NCBI GenBank assembly: GCA_021432605.1 | Contig: MU271159.1 | Location: 248,001-312,000 of the forward strand | Direction of reading: 5' to 3' | Source of the DNA: Coniochaeta sp. PMI_546 | Lineage: Eukaryota > Ascomycota > Sordariomycetes > Coniochaetales > Coniochaetaceae | DNA: 64,000 nt | Shown here: in pieces, positions 14,124 through 64,000 of the stretch | Layout: each line of letters opens with the position of its first letter | Position numbering within the stretch: the stretch's first letter is position 1 | The notes under the pieces: generated by a model | The model's input: the letters and a program-made list of their open reading frames with translations, nothing else | What the model was told of the DNA's origin: nothing | The model's database searches: none | Made by a program: the position numbers and the translations under genes

Positions 14124-17100
14124 TCACGACAGATAAGGAGGATCCATCTGTTTGTCGTCTCTATATGCCTCTAAGACCCGCGCAATATTAAAAAGCGCCG
14201 ACGTTTGCCAGTCATCGTCTCTAAGGTCAAAAAGCATCTCTGGGTTGACCGGGTTATACTTGCCTAGCTGACGCTGTCCTAGGTCCGTCATGTATTCATA
14301 GAAGACGCGCTGCATGACCTGCTGGTTCTTGAGGGTCTCACACCGTTCCAGGAGCAGGTCTTTCTTCTTCGCGAGCTCATCTACCACTCTGGGTGCCTGA
14401 GACCGCTGTTGTTGAGCCTTCTTCCTCTTCCAGGCGATTCCGCAAGCCCGGGCAAAATCAAGCACATAGGCGGCAATGCCGGCCGCGATGGCAGTCGAAC
14501 AGGACGTGCCCTCAACAGTTTGGACGGCGTTTCCAGGACCAGATATGTTGATGTCTTGCCCAATCACTTGAAAATTGGGAGAGTGATTACGCGCGAGAGG
14601 CGTGAACTCTGATGGTTTGCCATGGCCATTGTGCGAATGAACGCAGATTACGCTCGGGGACGACGCCGGAAACGCTATCGGCTGACGCTTTGGTGGCCGG
14701 TTGTTACCAGCAGAGGCGAGTATCAGGGCACGCTTGCCCACAGCATCGATCCTCTCGCGGATTTGCTCGGTCGGATTCTCAAGGCTTAGAGAAATGCTGA
14801 TTATATCAGCTTTCCATTTGTCTGCAGCCCACTCGATAGCCTGTGGTGGTCATTAGTCACTATCAAACATTGCGTGTCGCCGATATGTGGCATCACTCTT
14901 TCACAAAAGCGGGTGGTGATTGAAATGCTATCCCATTATGGAGAGTCTGGGAAACCTATCTGTGGTCCTGATGATCATGATTCCGTGCGCTTTGATCAGT
15001 GCCACGAGTATGCGGTTTCAGATGGGAACGAACCCTGGATAATTGGTATGTGATAGACCTCGGGATGTGAAACGACGAGATCAATGAAAACTGAACCAAC
15101 CTCGACAACCCTCTCTGAGACGCCTTCTTCTCTATCAGCCTTGGCCACACGGCCAATGTAGACCTTTGCAAGTCCCATAGTCTGGAAGAGCAGATGTGTC
15201 ATGACAGTTCCGTGCCGGTTTTCGGACTCGTCCACCATCGCTTTCTCTTCACCTCGGGACAGGTCGACGAAGTCTTTCCAGCCAACAATCCCGGGAGCTC
15301 TCACCCCTCGAGGGAGATTCCCATCGATGTTTCCGATGATTTTTTCCTTGATTTCTTTAAGTGCAAAATCGCAGCCTGTGTCTAGTATTGCCACGCGGAC
15401 TAAGCCATCCCACACGTCGTCCGGCTCAAATCCATGAAGCTTTAGCCTGTTATTTATTTTGAACAGACTCTGAGAGATGTATTGTAGGGGCTCCAGGAAT
15501 TTCTTTCTGTTCTCATAACCAGAAGTTAGGTGTCTAGTCTAATGGTTCTAGATAAGGGGCAACAAGACTTACGTCAGGTCAATGGGACTCTCGTTTGCTG
15601 CCAGTGTCGAGACGTGCTTAGCAGAGGAACTGCTTTCCCAGGATATCCTAGAGTTGTCCCTGGAGAAAACTTCGTAAGACCTCTTCCTCGAGCCGCTGTC
15701 ATTGCCACTGTCTTGGAATAATTCATCCATGCTTCCAAGGACAGCCCGATCAGCAGTCCTGGCGTTCAAAAACTGGTCGAGGCCATCCGACGTGTGTCCG
15801 CAAGCGTGGTCCTGGAGAATGGCACGTTCAAGGGGTAAAAGAACGTTGTCTCGGAATAATCTGGGATGGTCGCTCTCGGCTGCTTCGAACAAGCCAATAT
15901 CGGTACATTTAGCAATGGCCTTCAAGAGCGCCCAGTCACAGGGGAAGCGCGCTTGGCACTCTTGCTGGAGCTTCATCGCCTGCACCATCCTATCATTCAC
16001 GTTAACTTTGATATCGTCCGACAAGGACAACTCATTGCTCCCATTCCAGATCGCAGTGCAGTTCTGGAGCCTGTCGCCGAGGAGGATCTGCATAAGCACA
16101 ACCCCTAAGCCCAGGGCATATGGACAGCGATGCAGGAGCTCATCCATAGACATGTCACTGGATGCCTCGCTGTCTTGGCTGGGCATAAATACCCCTTGGG
16201 GCACGCTACTCGAAGGGCGATGCAGATCCAAGCGCAGATAAGGATACCTCAGCTCTAAGACAGACGAATTTTCGGTCTTCCGACCGTACACACGAATGTT
16301 GCCGAGGCCCCAATCCTGTTCCAGCCACTGTGTTGAATAGAGGTCGAGAACGGACCGAGCGATACGCAGACACAAGACCATTTTCTCGCGGTAGTGTAGC
16401 TCCCGGAACTCTAGCACCTCGCGGAGTGAAAACTCTTTTGCATCCTCCCCGAACTCCGGAGCTGGTTCAGTACGTTTGACATTTTTGTCAACACCAATTT
16501 CTTTGTCTTGGTTCACAACAAAATTGTAACACAAGTCTCTTCTCAGAGGATGATGACAGGCACTGAACCATCTCTTTGGGTCGACCAGACTGAAATTAGC
16601 GCTGTCAGCCTATGTTCATGTATTATAACAGTCGGAATGGGTGAAAATACAACTCACACAGCCGGAACCTGTACTCTGACCTTCGCTAATTGAAGTGTAC
16701 GAGGAGACGCGAATCTGAATATAAGACTAAAAGAGCCTGCTCCCTCCGCATGTCGACTCCAAGTACCATCCATACGTAGATTGACAGTTTCAGCTTCCCC
16801 AATGAGTTGAGGGGTGGAAGTCTTTTTTTTTCTGTTAGGAGGACGATTCTTTTCCCAGGTCTTCACGATGGCGTCTAGAAGACTGTTGAGGTGGCCCTGT
16901 GTCTTTTCCGAGCCTATTGGATCCCATGTGGCTCGCCTGTCTTTCAAGGTCAAGTGGCCTAATATCTGGCCCAATTCACGCCGCAACGGAGAAACCGAGT
17001 CGGCAAATTCAGCAGCCTGAACTGGGCTCAAGTCACGAAGAAGTTCCTTGTCGTGGGCCAGAGAGCCCTCCGAGTCTGCTTCTAAGCATTTATACAGACG

Positions 17101-17494
17101 ACAGAGCCCATGGGTCCCGGGATGATCTAGTCCGGGTGCGAACACTATCCTGGTCTTTGCTCCAGTTAGAACATCTCGGGTGCCTCGTTCAGAAAAGGCT
17201 TACCGAATTGCCGTCACGCTGAGCCGGTTCCCAGTCGAGGCGACCGCGAGAGACGAGAGAGTCAACGGCTTCTAATGCCGTGTCCCGTGCGGTATTATAC
17301 TTGTCGATGCTAAGATTAGCGATGGGGTCCGAGTCTCGCATAGTATGGATGGCTTCGTGGAAGAAATCTAGTTCGTCTGCAATGCGTTTCATGAATGGGA
17401 GGTCCTGTCCTATGTGCCCTGCGACGCGAGCCAAAACTCGACTTGTCCGGTGCAGCACCTCTTCGTGCGTCACCCAACGTGCCTGCGACTGCAT
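14124..17494 (-). CDS. DUF7580-type domain + subtilisin (S8) protease, HET-Q2-like
   Basis: Five exons: 17494-17204, 17154-16658, 16589-15573, 15506-15101, 14840-14124. They sum to 975 codons with every junction in phase. The ATG at 17494 is the first in the exon 1 frame. The N-terminal 260 residues are helical and unrecognised. About 270-560 matches the fungal DUF7580 pattern (LREVLEFRELHYREKMVLCL, EQDWGLGNIRVY, PYALGLGVVLMQILLG). The C-terminal S8 domain keeps Asp644 (AILDTGCD), His700 (NRHGT), the oxyanion Asn783 (SAGNN) and Ser850 (GTSCSTAIAAG), so it should be active. There is no signal peptide, so it is likely cytosolic. The last intron is 260 bp, much longer than the others. The gene is divergent from a gasdermin-like gene 604 bp away, as in the HET-Q2/HET-Q1 pair of Podospora, where the subtilase cleaves the gasdermin to trigger cell death. 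Confidence 0.87.
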
Positions 17495-18098
17495 AGTGCG
17501 GTTCCGGGCTTGGCAAAGGGCTCTGACGGCAAGCAAAAGATCCAGCCCAGTTGAAGGTATAATGATTTTATTCTCCTGATTCCTCTGAGCACTCGCACGG
17601 CGAGGATACACAGTCGTGCGAGTTTTCCTTTTGGCTCAGCTCAACCGGATCCGGAGTTAGCTGCGTCGAGCGGCCCGAGTCGAGCTGAGTTAACAGGTTT
17701 CAACATGCGGACCTTATCTATTACAGTTGGACGCTCATCCAATAGCGTCTGCGCTGAAGGGGGGAAATTGCCAGAGCCTGCCGATTCATCAACGTGACGG
17801 TGGCACCCCAGCTGCACCCCAGCTGCACTCCTCCCAACGCCACTCAGACAACCTGGGCGGCTATGCATCGTGATGGAGGGGTGAAGTGATGGAGGGAGGG
17901 CGGGAAGCGAAGGATAAGGCTCTGTCTGCAAACGAGCGCCTGGAAAGCTCTCGTACTACAGTATAAGAGCGAGCGTTCTCGAGCTGATCGTCGGCAACTC
18001 CAGAAGGACGACTCTGCTTGTGTTAGCGGAATGTTGCTACGCTCAGTCGATGACTTTACACAGTAAAGGGGCACATTCATGTTTTTTTTTTGGATGCG
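17495..18098. promoter_or_regulatory. Shared divergent promoter of the subtilase/gasdermin pair
   Basis: 604 bp between the two ATGs. It holds a direct duplication of an 11-bp unit (GCACCCCAGCT) at 17803-17824, a possible TATA element (TATAAG) at 17962 about 135 bp before the gasdermin-like ATG, and a T10 run at 18082-18091 just before that ATG. Joint regulation of protease and substrate is inferred from the layout only. Confidence 0.5.
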
Positions 18099-19043
18099 AT
18101 GGCAGACCCCAAGACATGGATTCTCACGAAGAGCACGAGTTATCCGCCAAATGATTTCCGCCTCCAGCTTGGGCAGGTCTTGCGCGACCCGAGGCTGCCA
18201 ATGCAGCCGCTGTTTCCATCGACGGACAATCCACCGCCCGAGATGAGTGGGATGCAGATTGCCGAGAATGTCACCAAGGGCGTCGTTGTTGGGAAGGGCT
18301 CCAGCCTGGCCCGGTGCTTTGGCCTGTGGGCGAACACATCGGTTGTTCCGGCGGACGGAGTACTCGCGGCGGCCGAAGAGAGGCACACTTGGTGGGAGTG
18401 GCGGCTGGATGAACTCGTCGACAAGGCTACGAGCTTCAGCGACGAACACGTGCGATCCCTCGTCAAGACCAACGCGATAGTCAAGCGCTACATCCGCGAC
18501 AATCGCATCGCTTCCCTGGGCCTAAAGCTCTTCCCGGGGCTCTTCATCGTCACGGGACTGCGGATTGCTAAAGGCGCTAAGATGGAGATGGCGTCGACTC
18601 TGGCAGTGGCGGGGCAGCTGAAGTTCCAGGTCAACGTCAACCCGAAGCAAGTGCCAGCCGCCAACGTGGGACTGCTTGCTCAGGCGACGAGGCTGCGGCA
18701 GGAACACGCCTCCTTCACCGAAGCCCAAGACTTCATCTTTGCGTATCAGTGCGTCGAGATCATGTACTTCCCTGTGACTGTCCCGAAGCAGTTTACCGGC
18801 GGTGATACGCAAATGGGGGCGCCGCCACCTCCCAAGCGGCAACGGTCAGACGAGGGTCAGGGAGCGACCCAGGGTGGAGTTGAGTCTGAGGATGAAGATG
18901 AGTTTGAAGTGCATCTTCGCCAGGAGGAATTCGGCGCCCTTGGAGGTGACGTGGCGGAGGACGAAGTGCTATTTGACACAGATGCGAGCCAGAGTCCTGT
19001 AACACGTGTAAACATCATCCTCGAGAAGGATAATGAGTCATGA
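18099..19043 (+). CDS. Gasdermin-like pore-forming protein (HET-Q1/RCD-1 family, putative)
   Basis: Single exon, 314 aa, starting MADPKTWIL; no ATG lies upstream in frame. Residues 1-228 look like one mixed alpha/beta domain. It holds the two segments I associate with fungal gasdermins: LFPGLFIVTGLRIAKGA (144-160), which resembles the 'VTG-K-ARGA' strand, and DFIFAYQCVEI (211-221). From about 232 the chain becomes disordered: a Pro/Lys/Arg patch (PPPPKRQR, 242-249), an acidic run (ESEDEDEFE, 262-270) and a short tail ending KDNES. In the family the C-terminal tail blocks pore formation until a protease removes it, after which the N-terminal part permeabilises the plasma membrane and kills the cell. 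The adjacent divergent S8 protease gene strongly supports this reading. The family call rests on pattern recognition, not on a search. Confidence 0.62.
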   Translation: MADPKTWILTKSTSYPPNDFRLQLGQVLRDPRLPMQPLFPSTDNPPPEMSGMQIAENVTKGVVVGKGSSLARCFGLWANTSVVPADGVLAAAEERHTWWEWRLDELVDKATSFSDEHVRSLVKTNAIVKRYIRDNRIASLGLKLFPGLFIVTGLRIAKGAKMEMASTLAVAGQLKFQVNVNPKQVPAANVGLLAQATRLRQEHASFTEAQDFIFAYQCVEIMYFPVTVPKQFTGGDTQMGAPPPPKRQRSDEGQGATQGGVESEDEDEFEVHLRQEEFGALGGDVAEDEVLFDTDASQSPVTRVNIILEKDNES

Positions 19044-19456: not shown

Positions 19457-21433
19457 ATGGACTCTATATCGGAGCGATGCAAGAAATGTATCGATCTGGT
19501 AAATGACCCAGGCACGTTACAGGCGGCCCCGGAAGGCTGGAGGTTCGAGTGGATTCTCCGCTTCGAGAAGTGGACCGTCCAGGAGCGCGTTACCATCAAG
19601 GACGATCAGCCATTGAGCAACCCGTCACTAGGCCTAGATGCAGTTCTCAAGGACGACGAACCGCTATATCGCCTGATGCAGAACGCGCTCCGTACTCTGG
19701 AGAATATTCTGCGAGGTGCGTTGAGACCTAGTCCGGACCCTTGCGAGAACCTACTGACACGCGTCCGACTAGACCTTACCGCTCAGCCGAACAAAGCTTC
19801 AATCTCGACGCCAGCATCGGTGTCTTGCCAGAGCCACGTTTCCCAATGCTCAACGCCGTCTTTCATCCCCGAGTATGACGTGCAACGAGAACAAGCAGGG
19901 CATAGCTGGGCCACTACCGGGCCGGCACTGAACGGCCCCGCTGCAACCCACTTGCGCCCGTCCTCAGATTCATCGGGAGACACTATCTTAGAGACCCATC
20001 CTTCGCGGGCGACCGACCGTGTTGGACTTGACTGCAGGTTCTTGGATCAGAGTCTCGAGCATCTGGTGCAGTTATCGGCCATGGGTCGCCTGCGCGCGAA
20101 AGATCGCCCTCTGCCAAGCATGGCGGAATGCCCCGATCTCTACGATGATGGTATAGCGCGCCTGATATACTTGCGAGCTTGGGATATTGTTACGAACCAT
20201 TTTCCCCAGGCAGATGCGGAAATACGCCAGCGCCAGGCCGCTGGCCTCAGTCTCACGTTAGCAGGCTTGATCCGTGAGCAGTGGGCTTTGCGTGGGGATG
20301 GACATTCCCCCCGATATCCCGTCCTGGCCACCGATGGTCCTTCGCACGAGCTGCTTCAACCGAGAGTATCAGCGCGGAGGATCATCACTCCCAGACGAGG
20401 TCGAAAGCGTAAACGCGGTGCGCAAAGCGAACCGGGACCTTCTCGAGGTACCGCTGACGACATCTTTCTCCCCCTCCCTGTCAGGGTTAACTCTGCACCG
20501 GTACACTCCCCCGAATCTGCCTCCCTCGTCGCAGGTTCCAAGTGCTCTTCAATATCAGGCGACGTAGCGTTCGTAGGCTCGTTTCCGCTAACATTTGATA
20601 CCCATCAAAGGTACAACTCGTTTTCAAACCCGAAGCGCGCACCGCCGCATCCCGCTAATTCGGCCTGTAGATACCAGGTAGCCCTAGCAAACAAACCGGA
20701 CGATCACAACACATTCGGCACCGGACCCTATGTTTGCCCTTTTACGCCCTGTCGGACGGCGTATAAACGCTATACAACACGAACAAAATGGGAGGAACAT
20801 CTGAAGAGCGAGCACATGACGCCCACGTGGATCTGCACCGCTCGTGCTCACAAGTCCGACATTGTCAAGTTCGCCGAACGCGGTGAGGCGGAGGCTCATC
20901 TGATGCAGGCTCACCGAATCCACGAATCCGTCGTCGGCCTTCTTTCCAAAGCGCTGGAGCGCAACACCGACATTCCCAACAATTGCCGCTTCTGTCTGGA
21001 GCCCGTGTCCACCCATCCCGGCAGCGCAGATGATCTACGCAGCGACTACTTGCAGCACACCGCAGCCCACTTTGCCGAGCTGGCCGACACGTACGTGCCG
21101 ATGATGAGAGAGTTCGAGGCCCTTACCCAACATCTCTTGGCGGAGCATCCGTTGAGTCTCTTGGAGCGACAAACCCCGACCCTCCCGCGGAGCGATTCCG
21201 ACCGGCTCCGTCAGTGGATACACACGTTCGTCGACCCATTGATCAGACCACTAGAGACGGGGCAGGACGAAGAAGATGACCAACCGCCGAGGAAATCCAG
21301 GATGCTGTCCACCGGCACGGATATCACACTGACTAGGGAGCCGGAAGCTTTGGCGCATGGCACGGCCGAGTCGAGCGGTCAGCTCCCTTCCAGGCGCCCG
21401 CACTACACTTTGGCCGCACAAATAAACGAGTGA
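19457..21433 (+). CDS. Large C2H2-type zinc-finger protein, function unknown
   Basis: Single exon, 658 aa, starting MDSISERCKKC. The N-terminal 110 residues (WRFEWILRFEKWTVQERV) are unrecognised. The middle is low complexity with a basic stretch (TPRRGRKRKRG) that could be a nuclear localisation signal. Residues about 415-560 hold Cys/His pairs fitting degenerate C2H2 fingers: YVCPFTPCRTAYKRY with a His pair in WEEHLKSEH, a Cys/His set ending in AEAHLMQAH, then NCRFCLEP with HTAAHF. This Cys/His-rich block is common in fungal proteins linked to STAND-type genes. DNA binding is possible but not shown. The gene runs in the same direction as the gasdermin-like gene and starts about 410 bp after it. 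Confidence 0.78.
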   Translation: MDSISERCKKCIDLVNDPGTLQAAPEGWRFEWILRFEKWTVQERVTIKDDQPLSNPSLGLDAVLKDDEPLYRLMQNALRTLENILRGALRPSPDPCENLLTRVRLDLTAQPNKASISTPASVSCQSHVSQCSTPSFIPEYDVQREQAGHSWATTGPALNGPAATHLRPSSDSSGDTILETHPSRATDRVGLDCRFLDQSLEHLVQLSAMGRLRAKDRPLPSMAECPDLYDDGIARLIYLRAWDIVTNHFPQADAEIRQRQAAGLSLTLAGLIREQWALRGDGHSPRYPVLATDGPSHELLQPRVSARRIITPRRGRKRKRGAQSEPGPSRGTADDIFLPLPVRVNSAPVHSPESASLVAGSKCSSISGDVAFVGSFPLTFDTHQRYNSFSNPKRAPPHPANSACRYQVALANKPDDHNTFGTGPYVCPFTPCRTAYKRYTTRTKWEEHLKSEHMTPTWICTARAHKSDIVKFAERGEAEAHLMQAHRIHESVVGLLSKALERNTDIPNNCRFCLEPVSTHPGSADDLRSDYLQHTAAHFAELADTYVPMMREFEALTQHLLAEHPLSLLERQTPTLPRSDSDRLRQWIHTFVDPLIRPLETGQDEEDDQPPRKSRMLSTGTDITLTREPEALAHGTAESSGQLPSRRPHYTLAAQINE

Positions 21434-36818: not shown

Positions 36819-38474
36819 TCAGCTCAGTTCACTTGAGTAGCTTTTGAACAGGGAATGCTCAGTTCTACCTTTGCCTGGTACGACTTGCGTATCCGATGAT
36901 GATCCCGTCGTTGAGTTTATTCCTAGCTGCTCCATGATTCTTGTCAAAGGGGAAGAGTCTTCATATGATACAATAGCACTTCTACTTGTGTTCGTCGATG
37001 GGGGTGGGGAATCGTCCGGATCCCCTAAGATAAAAGGTTCGTGAGGAGCCATCGGGGGATCCGGTTCTGGCAGCTCGACGCTCGGTACAGCGTGATGCTT
37101 TTCTGTCAAGACGACTGTCGTAGGTGGCGACACAGCGCTAGAAAATGCCGATGTAGATGGCATTGATGCGACGTTGAAAGGGTCGTATTCACCCAGGGCC
37201 AAAGCCCCAGACCCGGTGAACTCCATTATGTTGGTAGTAGGGACGATATTGTCGTCAGCGGTATTGGAAGCGCCTGGATCAGAGGTTTGCGGATCCGAGC
37301 TCGATTTCGGTAATCCAGCGTGTGCTTGATACAGTCTTGGCAGAAGATCAGGCGCTGATAGATCCAGACCGGTTTGCGAGGCGAATGTTTTGACGAATCC
37401 CACAAAGCTCGGCGGGTATGGTGCAATAGAAGGGGGTTCTATGGGGGAAAACGAAGGCGGGTTTATGGCTGATGGTAATAAGCTGACGCTGTGATCTAAT
37501 TCGCTGGATGATCTATCAGGATGTTCTAGCTGAGGCGAGCTTGGTGGAGGGGCAGAAGTCTGTGTTGTAACCTTGATAGTCGCTTGATCGCCCGTGCTAC
37601 TACTTCTCGCCGCAAGGGCGGATTCAGGGACTACATCAACGGCGAGTGATGGATCCAGAAGGTCGTCATTTCCGTCACTGGGCTGAGTAGGTGGTTGTCT
37701 CGTGGTTCCTCCAGGCTGAGGTTCTGATGTCCCCTCAGTATGACGGAGATCCTCATGGCTGGACTTCGGTGAGGCTTTGGGAGAAGGTCTCGGCGAAGGC
37801 CTCGGGGATGATACATGGGAACCCTCATCCGAGTCCCACACGACATCGTTGCAGACGGTCTCAGCATACGAGGTGAGACCGTCAAGATACTGTTCCAACA
37901 TATAGTTCTGGCCTCTAGTAGCCGACGGTATGTCCCCGGCTGCAACAATAGCCCGCAGTCTCGTCAGCTCAGCCATGATATGTGGGATCTGGCTGGTGTC
38001 CTGCTTGATGTCGCGAACGTCGGCTCGGACGGCTGTAGTATCCTCCTTGATTGCCTTGGATAGAGACACGGAGACCAGCTCGAGCACCAGGCTCAGGGAA
38101 CCCCGGTGAGCCTCGAGAGACATGCGCAGTCCGGCGACCTCGGCCTTCCCGAACATAACCCATTTCGCAGCCCCAGCCTTGCCGGCATGTTTCTGGAGGA
38201 CTTTGTTGATACTTTCGAGGACAGCGGAGCAGTTTTTAATAATGGACAGGATTTGGTTTTGAAGGGATTCGGGTAGGATTCTGTCATCGCTGACATCGGT
38301 GTCGTCTTTGAGAAGTTCGAGGACGAGCTGTAGTTGCGTTAGCTCCCCCGAGATGGACGTCAGGTCAGTGCGCGCATCGCGGCAGCCTCGAATAAAAGTG
38401 GTGATAGCCAGCGACGTCTTGCCAGCGGCGCCTAAGAGCGCCAAGCAGGCTGTTGTGATGGACAGTGGATCCAT
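36819..38474 (-). CDS. Fungal STAND-type N-terminal (HeLo-like_N) domain protein
   Basis: Open frame of 551 aa starting MDPLSITTACLALLG at 38474. Residues 1-180 are the fungal STAND N-terminal domain (CLALLGAAGKTSLAITTFI, then TSISGELTQLQLVLELL), with the helical bundle continuing to about 210. The rest is long, disordered and Ser/Pro-rich, with SPRPSPRPSPKASPK repeats. As a single exon it stops at 36819, only 50 bp before the Rho-like ATG on the same strand. An alternative is an intron 36868-36808 (GTAGAA...CTAG, 61 bp). It would remove the stop and join in frame via [17 protein letters not shown] to the Rho GTPase, for a 752-residue protein of six exons. I consider the fusion about as likely as two genes. 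HeLo-like domains in fungi act in cell-death signalling. Confidence 0.8.
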   Translation of the reverse strand: MDPLSITTACLALLGAAGKTSLAITTFIRGCRDARTDLTSISGELTQLQLVLELLKDDTDVSDDRILPESLQNQILSIIKNCSAVLESINKVLQKHAGKAGAAKWVMFGKAEVAGLRMSLEAHRGSLSLVLELVSVSLSKAIKEDTTAVRADVRDIKQDTSQIPHIMAELTRLRAIVAAGDIPSATRGQNYMLEQYLDGLTSYAETVCNDVVWDSDEGSHVSSPRPSPRPSPKASPKSSHEDLRHTEGTSEPQPGGTTRQPPTQPSDGNDDLLDPSLAVDVVPESALAARSSSTGDQATIKVTTQTSAPPPSSPQLEHPDRSSSELDHSVSLLPSAINPPSFSPIEPPSIAPYPPSFVGFVKTFASQTGLDLSAPDLLPRLYQAHAGLPKSSSDPQTSDPGASNTADDNIVPTTNIMEFTGSGALALGEYDPFNVASMPSTSAFSSAVSPPTTVVLTEKHHAVPSVELPEPDPPMAPHEPFILGDPDDSPPPSTNTSRSAIVSYEDSSPLTRIMEQLGINSTTGSSSDTQVVPGKGRTEHSLFKSYSSELS

Positions 38475-43832: not shown

Positions 43833-46640
43833 ATGTCACGGCTAATTGTTCAACTTCTCGTACTCGGCGGGCTTTTTGGACTGGGAACACCTCAAGTTTC
43901 TTCCCACGGTTGCTCCGAACCTGTCAAAGTACGATGGCTGGAGGATACGCCCAGGTATCACTCCGGTACTACTTTCGGGCTCCCCTGGCCCCAAGGGAAA
44001 TATGTTTTCGAGGATACGACATTCACAATTGCTACCGGAGCATCTCAGCAGGTACCACTCCAGTCCTGGGTAACCGGGTACTGGCGCGATGGTTCTATCA
44101 AGTGGACGGCACACGCTATTCCGAAACTTGACCAAATTCAAGACGGATATACCATTCTGGCCTCATCTGTCAAATCGGGAAATCGTTCGACCATGCGGCA
44201 AACGCGCAGCAGCTCGACTGACTTGGTCATAACAGATTCAGAAGATGAGATCAAAGTCAACACGGGCAAAATAACTGTATCCTTTCCCAAGACAGGAAGC
44301 AGCCTAGTGAGCTCAATCCAGACCGCCAGTGGGAAAGTTGTCGGCGAAAATGGAACACTGGTGCTTCACTCTCAGACCGCTGTTGCCGACAATCCCTCCG
44401 ATCGAGGGAGCACTGCCATCGACTATTTCAACTTTGAAAGCAACATTGAGCAAGTTCAAATCAGCGAAAAAAGCACCTCACGGGCTTTGGTTACTGTAAA
44501 CGGCAAGCATCGACTCGTCAATGGTGGCAATCATGACGATTGGTTGCAGTTCGTGATACGGTTCTATCTGTACGCCAACTCCGAAGCCGTGAGAATCATG
44601 CATACTGTTGTGTTCGATGGGGATGCCGACAAGGACTTCATCAGTGGCCTGGGCATTCGTTTTCAAGTACCACTGGCAGGTGAACAGCTCTATGATCGCC
44701 ATATCAGGATCGCTGGTGTTGACGGTGGTTTCCTCCACGAATCTGTGCAAGGGATCACCGGCCTGAATAGGAGCCCTGGTACCAACGTAACGACGGCCCA
44801 AGTCAATGGACAGAAGACGCCGGATAGCAGTACTTGGCCGTCAGGGTTGACATCCGGTCTTCAATGGATCCCGGTCTGGAATGGATGGAAGCTAAGCCAG
44901 TCATCCGCAGATGGCTTTACCCTGAAGAAGAGGACAAAACCGGGGCAAGGATGGATCAACATCCCAGGTGGAAATCGCTCGGAAGGTCTTGCATATCTCG
45001 GCGGTGCCACAGTCGGCGGCCTAGCTATAGGTCTCCGAGACTTTTGGAAGAAGAGCCCCAACAGTCTCGAAATTACCAACGCGGGATCAGACGCAGGCGA
45101 AATCACGATCTGGCTGTACGACCCAGACGCTCCACCTCTCGACCTGAGAGCTTATCATGATGAGATGGGAGAGGACACCTACGCGAAGCAGCTCGCTGGT
45201 TTGGCTATCACTTACGAAGACTACGAGCCGGGGTTTAGCACACCGTACGGGATTGCAAGAACTAATGAAGTCTACCTGTACCCATTTGATGCAACTCCAC
45301 CTAGCGACGATTTGGCTCTCCTGTTAACTCATCTGCACAAACCTCCCGTCTTGGTAGCCGATCCGGCGCACATCCAACAAACAAAGGCGCTAGGTTCATA
45401 CTGGGGCCTTGCAGACACCCTGAGCGAGAAGAGCGCTACCCTAGAGAGCCATCTTGACTTTCTCCTCAAGTTTTATGAAGGTCAACGTGAATATCGCAAG
45501 TGGTATGGATTCTTGGACTACGGTGATTTCATGCATACCTACGACGCGGACCGGCATACTTGGCGTTACGACGTTGGTGGTTACGCCTGGGACAACTCTG
45601 AACTCTCCCCTGACCTGTTCTACTGGCAGTACTTCCTACGTACTGGCCGAGCAGATGTTTACCGATTCGCCGAAGCTTTGACTCGCCACACTGGTGAGGT
45701 CGATGTCTATCACATCGGTGACTGGAAGGGTTTGGGGACTCGTCACGGAGTTCAGCACTATAGTGACAGCGCGAAGCAAGTCCGGATCTCCCAGCCTCAG
45801 TATCGTAAATATTTCTACTTTGTATCTGGTGGAGATGAGCGGGTTGGCGATCTGCTGACCGAGGTACTCGACACCGACAAGACATACGGCATACTTGATC
45901 CCCAGCGGAAGGTGCGCACAGACGGCTGGACACCTGCGCCAGGGGAACCTACGGCGATCAATCTTATTGACTGGTCAGGCCTCGCAGCTGGATGGCTTAT
46001 TGAGTGGGAGCGACGTGGTCCGCGCTGGGAGGAGGCCAAATCCAAGCTTACCGGCACGGCCACTGGCTTTGCCAATCTCAAGAACGGGTTCGTCACTGGT
46101 TCGGGCCTATATGTGATCGGTAATGGAACCTTGTTGCCACCTCCAGCAGACCCCGATAACAAGGGGCTCGTGGCCATATCCCACCTCGACTCGGTCTTTG
46201 GTCTGCCGGAGGTGATGTCTGAGATGCTCGAGTACTGGGGCGACGACGCCCCCAAGGGTCTGAAGGAGGCCTGGTTTGACTACTGCTTCTATTACGGCGC
46301 GACGTCAGCTGAGCAGAAGGCGCGGTATGGCACAGCTTTCTCCGATATCAGCCTTTTCACAGGACACTCGCGTTTAACGGCCTACTACGCCAATCAGACC
46401 AACAATGCGACTGTCGCTCAGCGTGCCTGGAAGGAGTTTTATAACAACACCGATGGACATGATGGGCTGCCTCCGAATGCTCCTTGGAAGACAAGCTGGG
46501 TGAACGGTAGTATTGTTCTGGCTGCGCTGGAAGAGGCCACATGGATCCAATCCAGCAATGCCGTGGCACAGTATGGACTGGCCGTTATCCAGGATCTAGC
46601 CTTGGTGAGACAGGCCCTGGATAGTTCACCATATGGTTAG
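43833..46640 (+). CDS. Exo-rhamnogalacturonan lyase-like protein (PL26, PcRGLX/YetA-like)
   Basis: Single exon, 935 aa. It has a signal peptide (MSRLIVQLLVLGGLFGLG) and many N-glycosylation sites. The layout fits the three-domain PcRGLX/YetA family: an N-terminal barrel (VRWLEDTPRYHSGTTFGLPW, SWVTGYWRDGSIKWTAHA), a central beta-sandwich (FDGDADKDFISGLGIRF, LQWIPVWNGWKLS) and a C-terminal alpha/alpha toroid (WYGFLDYGDFMHTYD, WDNSELSPDLFYWQYF, HYSDSAKQVRISQPQYRKYF, SRLTAYYANQT). PcRGLX is an exo-acting lyase that removes unsaturated rhamnogalacturonan disaccharides from pectin chain ends. The length matches the family. The long intron-free frame in an accessory block could be ancient or acquired; base composition does not stand out to the eye. 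Confidence 0.87.
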   Translation: MSRLIVQLLVLGGLFGLGTPQVSSHGCSEPVKVRWLEDTPRYHSGTTFGLPWPQGKYVFEDTTFTIATGASQQVPLQSWVTGYWRDGSIKWTAHAIPKLDQIQDGYTILASSVKSGNRSTMRQTRSSSTDLVITDSEDEIKVNTGKITVSFPKTGSSLVSSIQTASGKVVGENGTLVLHSQTAVADNPSDRGSTAIDYFNFESNIEQVQISEKSTSRALVTVNGKHRLVNGGNHDDWLQFVIRFYLYANSEAVRIMHTVVFDGDADKDFISGLGIRFQVPLAGEQLYDRHIRIAGVDGGFLHESVQGITGLNRSPGTNVTTAQVNGQKTPDSSTWPSGLTSGLQWIPVWNGWKLSQSSADGFTLKKRTKPGQGWINIPGGNRSEGLAYLGGATVGGLAIGLRDFWKKSPNSLEITNAGSDAGEITIWLYDPDAPPLDLRAYHDEMGEDTYAKQLAGLAITYEDYEPGFSTPYGIARTNEVYLYPFDATPPSDDLALLLTHLHKPPVLVADPAHIQQTKALGSYWGLADTLSEKSATLESHLDFLLKFYEGQREYRKWYGFLDYGDFMHTYDADRHTWRYDVGGYAWDNSELSPDLFYWQYFLRTGRADVYRFAEALTRHTGEVDVYHIGDWKGLGTRHGVQHYSDSAKQVRISQPQYRKYFYFVSGGDERVGDLLTEVLDTDKTYGILDPQRKVRTDGWTPAPGEPTAINLIDWSGLAAGWLIEWERRGPRWEEAKSKLTGTATGFANLKNGFVTGSGLYVIGNGTLLPPPADPDNKGLVAISHLDSVFGLPEVMSEMLEYWGDDAPKGLKEAWFDYCFYYGATSAEQKARYGTAFSDISLFTGHSRLTAYYANQTNNATVAQRAWKEFYNNTDGHDGLPPNAPWKTSWVNGSIVLAALEEATWIQSSNAVAQYGLAVIQDLALVRQALDSSPYG

Positions 46641-61868: not shown

Positions 61869-63863
61869 CTAAACAAGTCTCATGAGTTCGACATCTCTCG
61901 CCCCAGACCTCCTGAGCTCCGCGGCTTCGCCTCGCATGAGTCCAATAACGAAACACACGCCGACGTGAACAAGTGTGGAACCCTCTCTGCGGAGAACAAC
62001 CGGGAAAGACGAGCCATGCAGAATGCAGACTGTGTCGCCAGGTATGGTGTTCAGAGGACAGCGTCCGACCAGTCCGCTTTCAGTTTCGAAGAAGCGCCAC
62101 CTCTTGCGGACCAGGGTCATGTCAAAGATGACCGCCGCGCTCTCAGGGCGCTCTTGGAAAGCTCCATTGAGAAAGCTGTCGCGCCATCCATGGCTTGGAC
62201 CGCTGTAGCCTGGAAAGAAGGCTTCGATGAAGGACCTCTCCCACGTGTCGCTGTCGCTGTCGCTGTCGGAGCCCAGAGGCTCCAGCCCAAGAGCGACAAG
62301 GTGTTGATCAATGTGCTCTGGATCCGCGCTCATGAGGAACTCCAGCAGGTGGAAAGCGAAGAAGACGTATGACTCGTCCATGACATCTGTGGGGTCCAGG
62401 CGAACTGTGCGTAAAATCCTCTGCAACGGAGGCATGGCTGCCTCGTCTGCACGGGCCTTGTCGCGTGCCACGATGTCTTCGAAGTACTTTAGCATGGAGC
62501 CGTCAAACCAGGTGTCTTCGTGCGGTGCTCTCTCGGTTCTAGTAACTGTCTCTAGCTTAAGGCCTGTAACTACGAGATTTGCGCCAGATACAAAGGCCAT
62601 AGGGGTACCGGGATTGAAGACATCACGATCAGCCTCGGCGCCCTCGGGCATCGCACCGGCAATCGACTTGGACGACTCCTCGGGATAGTTTGGAGCCCAG
62701 GAAGGGAAGCCGTCGGCATTGTCGTAGACTCCCTGGCCTGCGTAGAATAGAAAGAACAACGCTGGGAGCCTTACTTCGGTGGCACAGGCCGGGTACGTTG
62801 CGAGCAGAGCCGAGACGTAGTCGCGATACACATCCGCAACGGACTTTGATTTGGAATAGTCCGGAGTAACGTGCATTCGAGACAAGCTCATCAGGCCGTA
62901 AACGTGGTCCTTTCTGTCCGTTGCTCGGAGCCCACGGCCCATGAGCGACATCACCAGCCCATCACTTGCCGTCTGATCTCCGGATGCTATTCGGTCAGCT
63001 CTCAGCCGTCCGGCATGAATCTTCTGGAGGATCGTCCAATCCATAAAGGTCGAGCACAGCAGGTTCCAAATCGTCGTCCCCAGGAGAAAATCCGGACATG
63101 AAATTGCCTTTTCTCGAATACTCTCCTTCAAGAGCTGGAGGCATGTCCACGCCGTCTCAATCGTAGACCAATGGATTGCTGCGCTCTCGGTGCAGATGAC
63201 CAAGTTTCTCGCCAGGGCCGTCTCCTGGAAGATCCAGACCCGCGACCAATACTCAAGATCCAGAAATTTGTACGTGGCATGCCACCTCTCATTGTAGGGG
63301 TAGACATCAGGATCATCTCTTGCCCACGTGTCGTCACAGAGGGAGGCGTTCTTCTCGATCCAGTGCATGCTGAGAAGCTCATCCATCGATAGGTGCGAGG
63401 CCTCTTTGGCGATGAGCTCGTATGTATCGAGAGCCAGATTCGTCAGACTGTCGTCGACGCCTAGATACGACAACACAAGCTCCGCCGATTGATATATCTT
63501 GGCCATGAACTCTATTTGATGATTCCTCTCGTGGACGTCATCCTGATTGATGCAGATGGCGTCTGCCCAGAGCTCGAACGACGCTCTATCCCTCCCAGGA
63601 CAGTGGGCTTCCCAGTGTTTGGTGACATGCCGCAGCGCGTTTGCTAAGTTCACTGTGATCGCCAGAGGCTCCCCGTCCAGGGTGATGGTCTCCGTGAAAG
63701 CGGGATCACCACATACGTAGGAGAGGGCGGTAAATGGGGATGTTGTTTGCGACAAGGCTACGGTCCGCACTGTTGCGGTGATGTTGCCGTCTACATCTAT
63801 GCTAAACTTCAGCAGTCTGATTTCGGACTTCAGAGCATCTAAAGGCTTGTAGCTCGGGTGCAT
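61869..63863 (-). CDS. HET (heterokaryon incompatibility) domain protein
   Basis: Single exon, 664 aa from the ATG at 63863, the first in frame (MHPSYKPLD). The HET domain covers about residues 5-160 with its three blocks: FTALSYVCGD, LWADAICINQDDVHERNHQI, and YWSRVWIFQETALARNLVI. After it come the usual helical middle (MGRGLRATDRKDHVYGLMSL, PDYSKSKSVADVYRDY) and the family C-terminus with GRCPLNTIPGDTVCILHGSS. A run of four Ser-Asp pairs lies at about 545, coded by a hexamer repeat near 62250-62270. HET proteins trigger cell death when unlike individuals fuse, or act more widely in fungal immunity. No partner domain is fused here. Confidence 0.93.
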   Translation of the reverse strand: MHPSYKPLDALKSEIRLLKFSIDVDGNITATVRTVALSQTTSPFTALSYVCGDPAFTETITLDGEPLAITVNLANALRHVTKHWEAHCPGRDRASFELWADAICINQDDVHERNHQIEFMAKIYQSAELVLSYLGVDDSLTNLALDTYELIAKEASHLSMDELLSMHWIEKNASLCDDTWARDDPDVYPYNERWHATYKFLDLEYWSRVWIFQETALARNLVICTESAAIHWSTIETAWTCLQLLKESIREKAISCPDFLLGTTIWNLLCSTFMDWTILQKIHAGRLRADRIASGDQTASDGLVMSLMGRGLRATDRKDHVYGLMSLSRMHVTPDYSKSKSVADVYRDYVSALLATYPACATEVRLPALFFLFYAGQGVYDNADGFPSWAPNYPEESSKSIAGAMPEGAEADRDVFNPGTPMAFVSGANLVVTGLKLETVTRTERAPHEDTWFDGSMLKYFEDIVARDKARADEAAMPPLQRILRTVRLDPTDVMDESYVFFAFHLLEFLMSADPEHIDQHLVALGLEPLGSDSDSDSDTWERSFIEAFFPGYSGPSHGWRDSFLNGAFQERPESAAVIFDMTLVRKRWRFFETESGLVGRCPLNTIPGDTVCILHGSSFPVVLRREGSTLVHVGVCFVIGLMRGEAAELRRSGARDVELMRLV

Positions 63864-64000
63864 GACAGCGCATATCCCGATTAAACTTTCGGTAATCAAA
63901 TCGATGTCGGCTTATAATGGTGGAGATACATGTGTGCACTGTGTATGGTATTCCTGGCAGTTCCGCTACGTACTGTGGTAGTTGCATTGATGGACAAACA
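63864..64000. other. right edge
   Basis: 5' flank of the HET gene; nothing recognised. Confidence 0.4.

Follow-up and report, generated by a model that had tools for sequence, protein, structure and literature searches.

A head-to-head subtilase and gasdermin-like gene pair as a candidate cell-death module in Coniochaeta sp. PMI_546

Two divergent genes and their products

We analyzed a stretch of 64,000 nucleotides from the ascomycete Coniochaeta sp. PMI_546 (assembly GCA_021432605.1, contig MU271159.1, positions 248,001 to 312,000 of the forward strand), hereafter the window, in which a gene encoding a large subtilase and a gene encoding a gasdermin-like protein of 314 amino acids (aa) are divergently oriented. 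A preliminary description of this DNA had proposed that they form a cell-death module. The features of the locus, numbered from the first letter of the window, are the following:

14124-17494, minus strand: subtilase gene, 975 aa, five exons (17494-17204, 17154-16658, 16589-15573, 15506-15101 and 14840-14124) joined across GT..AG introns with the frame open throughout
14451-15400, minus strand: Peptidase S8 domain, residues 638-867 (PF00082, E-value (E) 5.7e-20 on the spliced protein)
14502-14504, minus strand: codon of catalytic Ser850, in a GTSCST motif aligned with the GTS of subtilisin BPN'
15212-15214, minus strand: codon of catalytic His700, aligned with the HGT of subtilisin BPN'
15380-15382, minus strand: codon of catalytic Asp644, aligned with the Asp motif of an intracellular subtilisin
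16007-16528, minus strand: DUF7580 domain, residues 284-457 (PF24476, E 3.1e-13), possibly part of a sensing half
17495-18098, no strand: intergenic region of 604 base pairs (bp) between the two start codons, as obtained by exon joining
18099-19043, plus strand: gasdermin-like gene, 314 aa, intronless (codon usage, open frame and a match to the PADLOC model bGSDM)
18549-18578, plus strand: VTGLRIAKGA segment, residues 151-160, read from the sequence
18627-18875, plus strand: stretch matching bGSDM in the PADLOC scan, residues 177-259 against positions 170-245 of the 257 of the profile, including DFIFAYQC
18783-19040, plus strand: acidic C-terminal tail by composition, residues 229-314 (21 Asp or Glu, 7 Lys or Arg)

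The gene models of the preliminary description proved exact: five minus-strand exons join into 975 codons, the 314-aa gene begins at 18099 and the ATG-to-ATG distance of 604 bp confirms the head-to-head layout. The region between the two start codons is presumably a shared promoter region. All four subtilase introns are of the GT..AG type (49, 68, 66 and 260 bp), the longest of them (14841-15100, minus strand, donor GTTGGT) being about 4 to 5 times the length of the other three. This intron lies inside the Peptidase S8 domain, and the spliced S8 piece can be aligned across it with subtilisin BPN' and with an intracellular subtilisin; the BPN' alignment supports the long splice. The start of the protein was taken at the first in-frame ATG, a choice that is not certain, and a further exon upstream is possible; with that start codon, and with no hydrophobic leader visible by eye, the subtilase appears to be cytosolic. 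As far as can be read from the DNA, the gene is intact. The open reading frame (ORF) of exon 1 gave a weak match to a kinase model of NCBIfam (E 0.011), which was not counted.

The protease had been described as combining DUF7580 and S8 domains with a complete Asp644/His700/Ser850 set, and we could locate both Pfam domains and all three residues, the latter in the correct Asp-His-Ser order. The Peptidase_S8 score (72.2 bits) is well above the curated cut-off of 21.8, and the S8 piece matches 80 distinct PDB sequences at E <= 0.001, with subtilisin BPN' and intracellular serine proteases at the top; the 60 of these 80 that were listed all carry names of subtilisin or serine-protease type. A 226-aa piece covering DUF7580 from residue 316 has no sequence match in the PDB up to E 10. 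DUF7580 is likewise not named in the literature searched, including the available passages on Q2L-fGSDM pairs. It is conceivable, though not likely, that DUF7580 is a kinase-like sensor module and the DUF7580-S8 architecture one not separately described for gasdermin control, which would link kinase-like sensing to fungal pyroptosis-like death.

The intronless 314-aa ORF is likely a coding frame, as indicated by its codon usage and length. Measured against a reference of five other ORFs of the window, its own frame scores +72.5 bits and none of the other five more than +9.8. When its 945 bases were shuffled 200 times, the longest run without a stop over six frames had a median of 128 and a maximum of 271 codons. 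The gene is adjoined downstream by a 658-aa ORF (19457-21433, plus strand) without Pfam match up to E 1, in which the spacing of Cys and His residues looks zinc-finger-like by eye.

Profile evidence for a gasdermin

The gasdermin assignment relies first on a PADLOC scan, in which bGSDM (E 0.006) was the sole match of the 314-aa protein up to E 10 among 5,027 models. For one model proposed beforehand, this corresponds to about 1.2e-6 (0.006/5,027, assuming that a single gasdermin model is included). The matching stretch falls near the end of the profile, neither the reversed sequence nor four shuffles gave a match, and an 80-aa fragment keeps the match with equal score over residues 177-224. 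When 45 ORFs of the window (at least 150 aa long, including the 314-aa ORF and three protease-exon ORFs) were compared with PADLOC, two families, subtilase and bGSDM, appeared at E <= 0.1 with one ORF each, presumably that of exon 5 for subtilase and that of the 314-aa protein for bGSDM; many of these ORFs overlap on opposite strands, so that they do not represent 45 genes.

Two gasdermin-type segments named in the preliminary description, VTGLRIAKGA and DFIFAYQC, are both present, the first at residues 151-160 and the second at residues 211-218. The first is by itself not diagnostic, as degenerate forms of it turned up in viral contigs: searched as VTG-x-[K or R]-IA-x-G with two degenerate patterns at the DNA level, these contigs yielded 18 and 8 stretches, some of which look by eye like tail-type or aminotransferase-type proteins. 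None of these 26 viral-contig stretches has FAY within 140 residues after the VTG-type motif. The order of VTG..IAKG followed by FAY..EI presumably resembles that of the strands at the end of the pore domain in gasdermins, a likeness that we take as a lead only.

Several observations weigh against a gasdermin and feed an alternative explanation, namely that the 314-aa protein is some other fungal orphan, that the subtilase, a DUF7580-S8 protease, works on its own in an unrelated process and that their adjacency is due to chance. With 14.1 bits, the bGSDM score is weak, and the match does not extend to residues 1-176; moreover, the match disappears in a 240-aa truncation yet is kept in the 80-aa fragment and, therefore, probably lies at the edge of HMMER's filters. 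No gasdermin match to the protein was found in Pfam, NCBIfam, PHROGs or the PDB; Pfam gives no match of any kind up to E 1, and NCBIfam and PHROGs likewise give nothing. Part of the bGSDM stretch (residues 183-209) resembles protein A repeats in the PDB, with E varying by query from 2e-5 (80-aa fragment) to 0.02 (180 aa) and 0.49 (whole protein). No single stretch passes alone, and we take this resemblance as an artefact of summing repeats. Single-sequence fold predictions of the whole protein and of residues 46-232 both reached a mean predicted local distance difference test (pLDDT) of 34.5.

Searches beyond the window add to these points. The PADLOC bGSDM model was run over 1,834 genomes, some of them drawn repeatedly, with cut-offs of 0.001, 1e-6 or 1e-5 depending on the batch. 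It matched in two genomes, both in one batch of 347 bacterial genomes (cut-off 0.001), and both matches (20.8 and 22.5 bits, at 1501-1761 of the pieces of DNA taken from these genomes) lie antisense to another ORF whose product seems by eye to be a secreted protein; they are probably false positives of the model. None of 14 control genomes was matched, which leaves the bacterial searches without a positive control. Protein scans of viral contigs, bacterial and archaeal genomes and plasmids, all of them non-fungal collections, found no relatives in which linkage of the two genes could be followed.

Against an orphan beside an unrelated protease stand the facts that a gasdermin had been proposed before the search, that bGSDM was then the sole match among all the PADLOC models, and that the only other family detected in the 45 ORFs was the subtilase. 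We consider this alternative unlikely. The gasdermin-like reading of the preliminary description is partly supported, in that the weak profile match, the neighboring complete subtilase domain and the head-to-head layout agree with it; the fold predictions, with their low mean pLDDT, did not add to it. On the sequence evidence, the identification of the 314-aa protein as a gasdermin is supported, not proved.

A putative protease-activated gasdermin

By analogy with characterized systems, it is probable that the pair belongs to the Q2L/fGSDM type of cell-death units, which in fungi consist of two genes, and that it comprises a protease-activated gasdermin, so that the earlier interpretation is probably right once its reference to HET-Q (see below) is corrected. 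In such a unit, the short acidic C-terminal tail would hold the 314-aa gasdermin inactive, and the subtilase would act as a sensor-protease in which the approximately 600 residues preceding the S8 domain, DUF7580 among them, would be the sensor. Upon meeting a non-self or damage cue through its N-terminal half, the activated subtilase would cut the 314-aa protein near the end of its core, at about residues 228-240, where F231 is a candidate for the P1 residue solely because of its position. The freed core would then oligomerize and open pores in the plasma membrane, leading to cell death. That the tail is an inhibitory piece removed by cleavage, and that the cut falls in this region, is presumed because of the analogy with the cleavage of HET-Q1 by HET-Q2; in the 314-aa protein, as in HET-Q1, a tail follows the (here putative) core. 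The fold, the pore formation, the cue and the biological role are likewise inferred.

The protein could also be a true gasdermin that behaves like RCD-1, responding to the co-expression of two incompatible alleles, next to a protease with another target. RCD-1 is indeed activated without observed cleavage (PMC12881547, PMC11760362), whereas most fungal gasdermin genes adjoin protease genes (PMC10197012), and this alternative seems very improbable here. A last alternative, that the locus is a relic or idiomorphic with one non-functional partner, similar to what has been suggested for how het-Q1/het-Q2 arose, draws on the birth-and-death evolution of fungal gasdermin genes and on the pseudogenization model put forward for these two genes (PMC10197012); with both frames open and the catalytic triad complete, it seems the least probable of all.

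If the protease-activated gasdermin reading is true, a family of approximately 1,900 members gains one more pair of protease and gasdermin, the protease being one that contains a DUF7580 region. The stimuli that activate these putative sensors are called a major open question (PMC12881547); a pair as compact as this one, within 5 kb, would lend itself well to testing it but does not by itself provide the answer.

Elsewhere in the window, we noted a 551-aa ORF with an N-terminal PigL_N domain (36819-38474, minus strand; PF17111, E 5.3e-10), a 935-aa PcRGLX-like ORF (43833-46640, plus strand; PF21346, E 2e-167) and, approximately 43 kb from the pair, a 676-aa ORF with a HET domain of the heterokaryon-incompatibility type (61869-63899, minus strand; PF06985, E 9.6e-25). 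Domains such as HET, PigL_N and DUF7580, together with the short GT..AG introns of the subtilase gene, give the window the appearance of filamentous-fungal chromosomal DNA.

Comparison with known gasdermin systems

The preliminary description had taken Podospora HET-Q2/HET-Q1 as the model of linked subtilase and gasdermin genes. This has to be amended: het-Q1 and het-Q2 are idiomorphs, i.e., alternative genes at one locus (PMC12881547), and, therefore, not the linked model, which is instead provided by the Q2L-gasdermin clusters. The Podospora system resembles the Coniochaeta pair in its S8 subtilase and gasdermin types and in the proposed removal of a tail, HET-Q2 being thought to cut HET-Q1 at F238 and to take off 40 of its 278 residues (PMC10989679). 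Compared by description, it differs in having idiomorphic partners of 388 aa (HET-Q2) and 278 aa (HET-Q1), versus adjacent ones of 975 and 314 aa here. Neurospora RCD-1 is also a fungal protein of gasdermin type but is described as having no inhibitory tail and as being activated by allele pairing; in the PDB, it showed no sequence match to the 314-aa protein or to its 80-aa and 180-aa pieces. With bacterial gasdermin systems, the Coniochaeta locus shares an adjacent protease gene and the match of its 314-aa protein to the bGSDM profile; the similarity is weak, and here the host is a fungus and the protease gene contains introns and DUF7580.

The closest parallel is found in the Q2L-fGSDM clusters (Clave et al. 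2022). The pairing of protease and gasdermin is itself already known in fungi, and the present locus looks like one more example of it. Approximately 1,900 fungal gasdermins have been reported in 400 genomes, about 80% of their genes lying in clusters with genes of proteases, the share for S8 proteases being about 63%, and the linked Q2L-gasdermin clusters found by genome mining are common (PMC10197012). Some 1,500 Q2L proteins are counted in the same source, about one third of them covered by 18 architectures, and their protease domains are described as fused to repeats or to predicted kinase-like domains (PMC12881547). The passages available on these clusters do not mention DUF7580 by name, although it may be one of the predicted kinase-like domains to which the protease is fused, or it may not. 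At 604 bp from the 314-aa gene, the Coniochaeta subtilase gene lies far inside the 10 kb used to recognize a Q2L-fGSDM pair, provided that the 314-aa protein is a gasdermin, and it shares with these clusters an S8 protease gene beside a gasdermin-type gene, a multidomain protease and a short C-terminal tail on the gasdermin.

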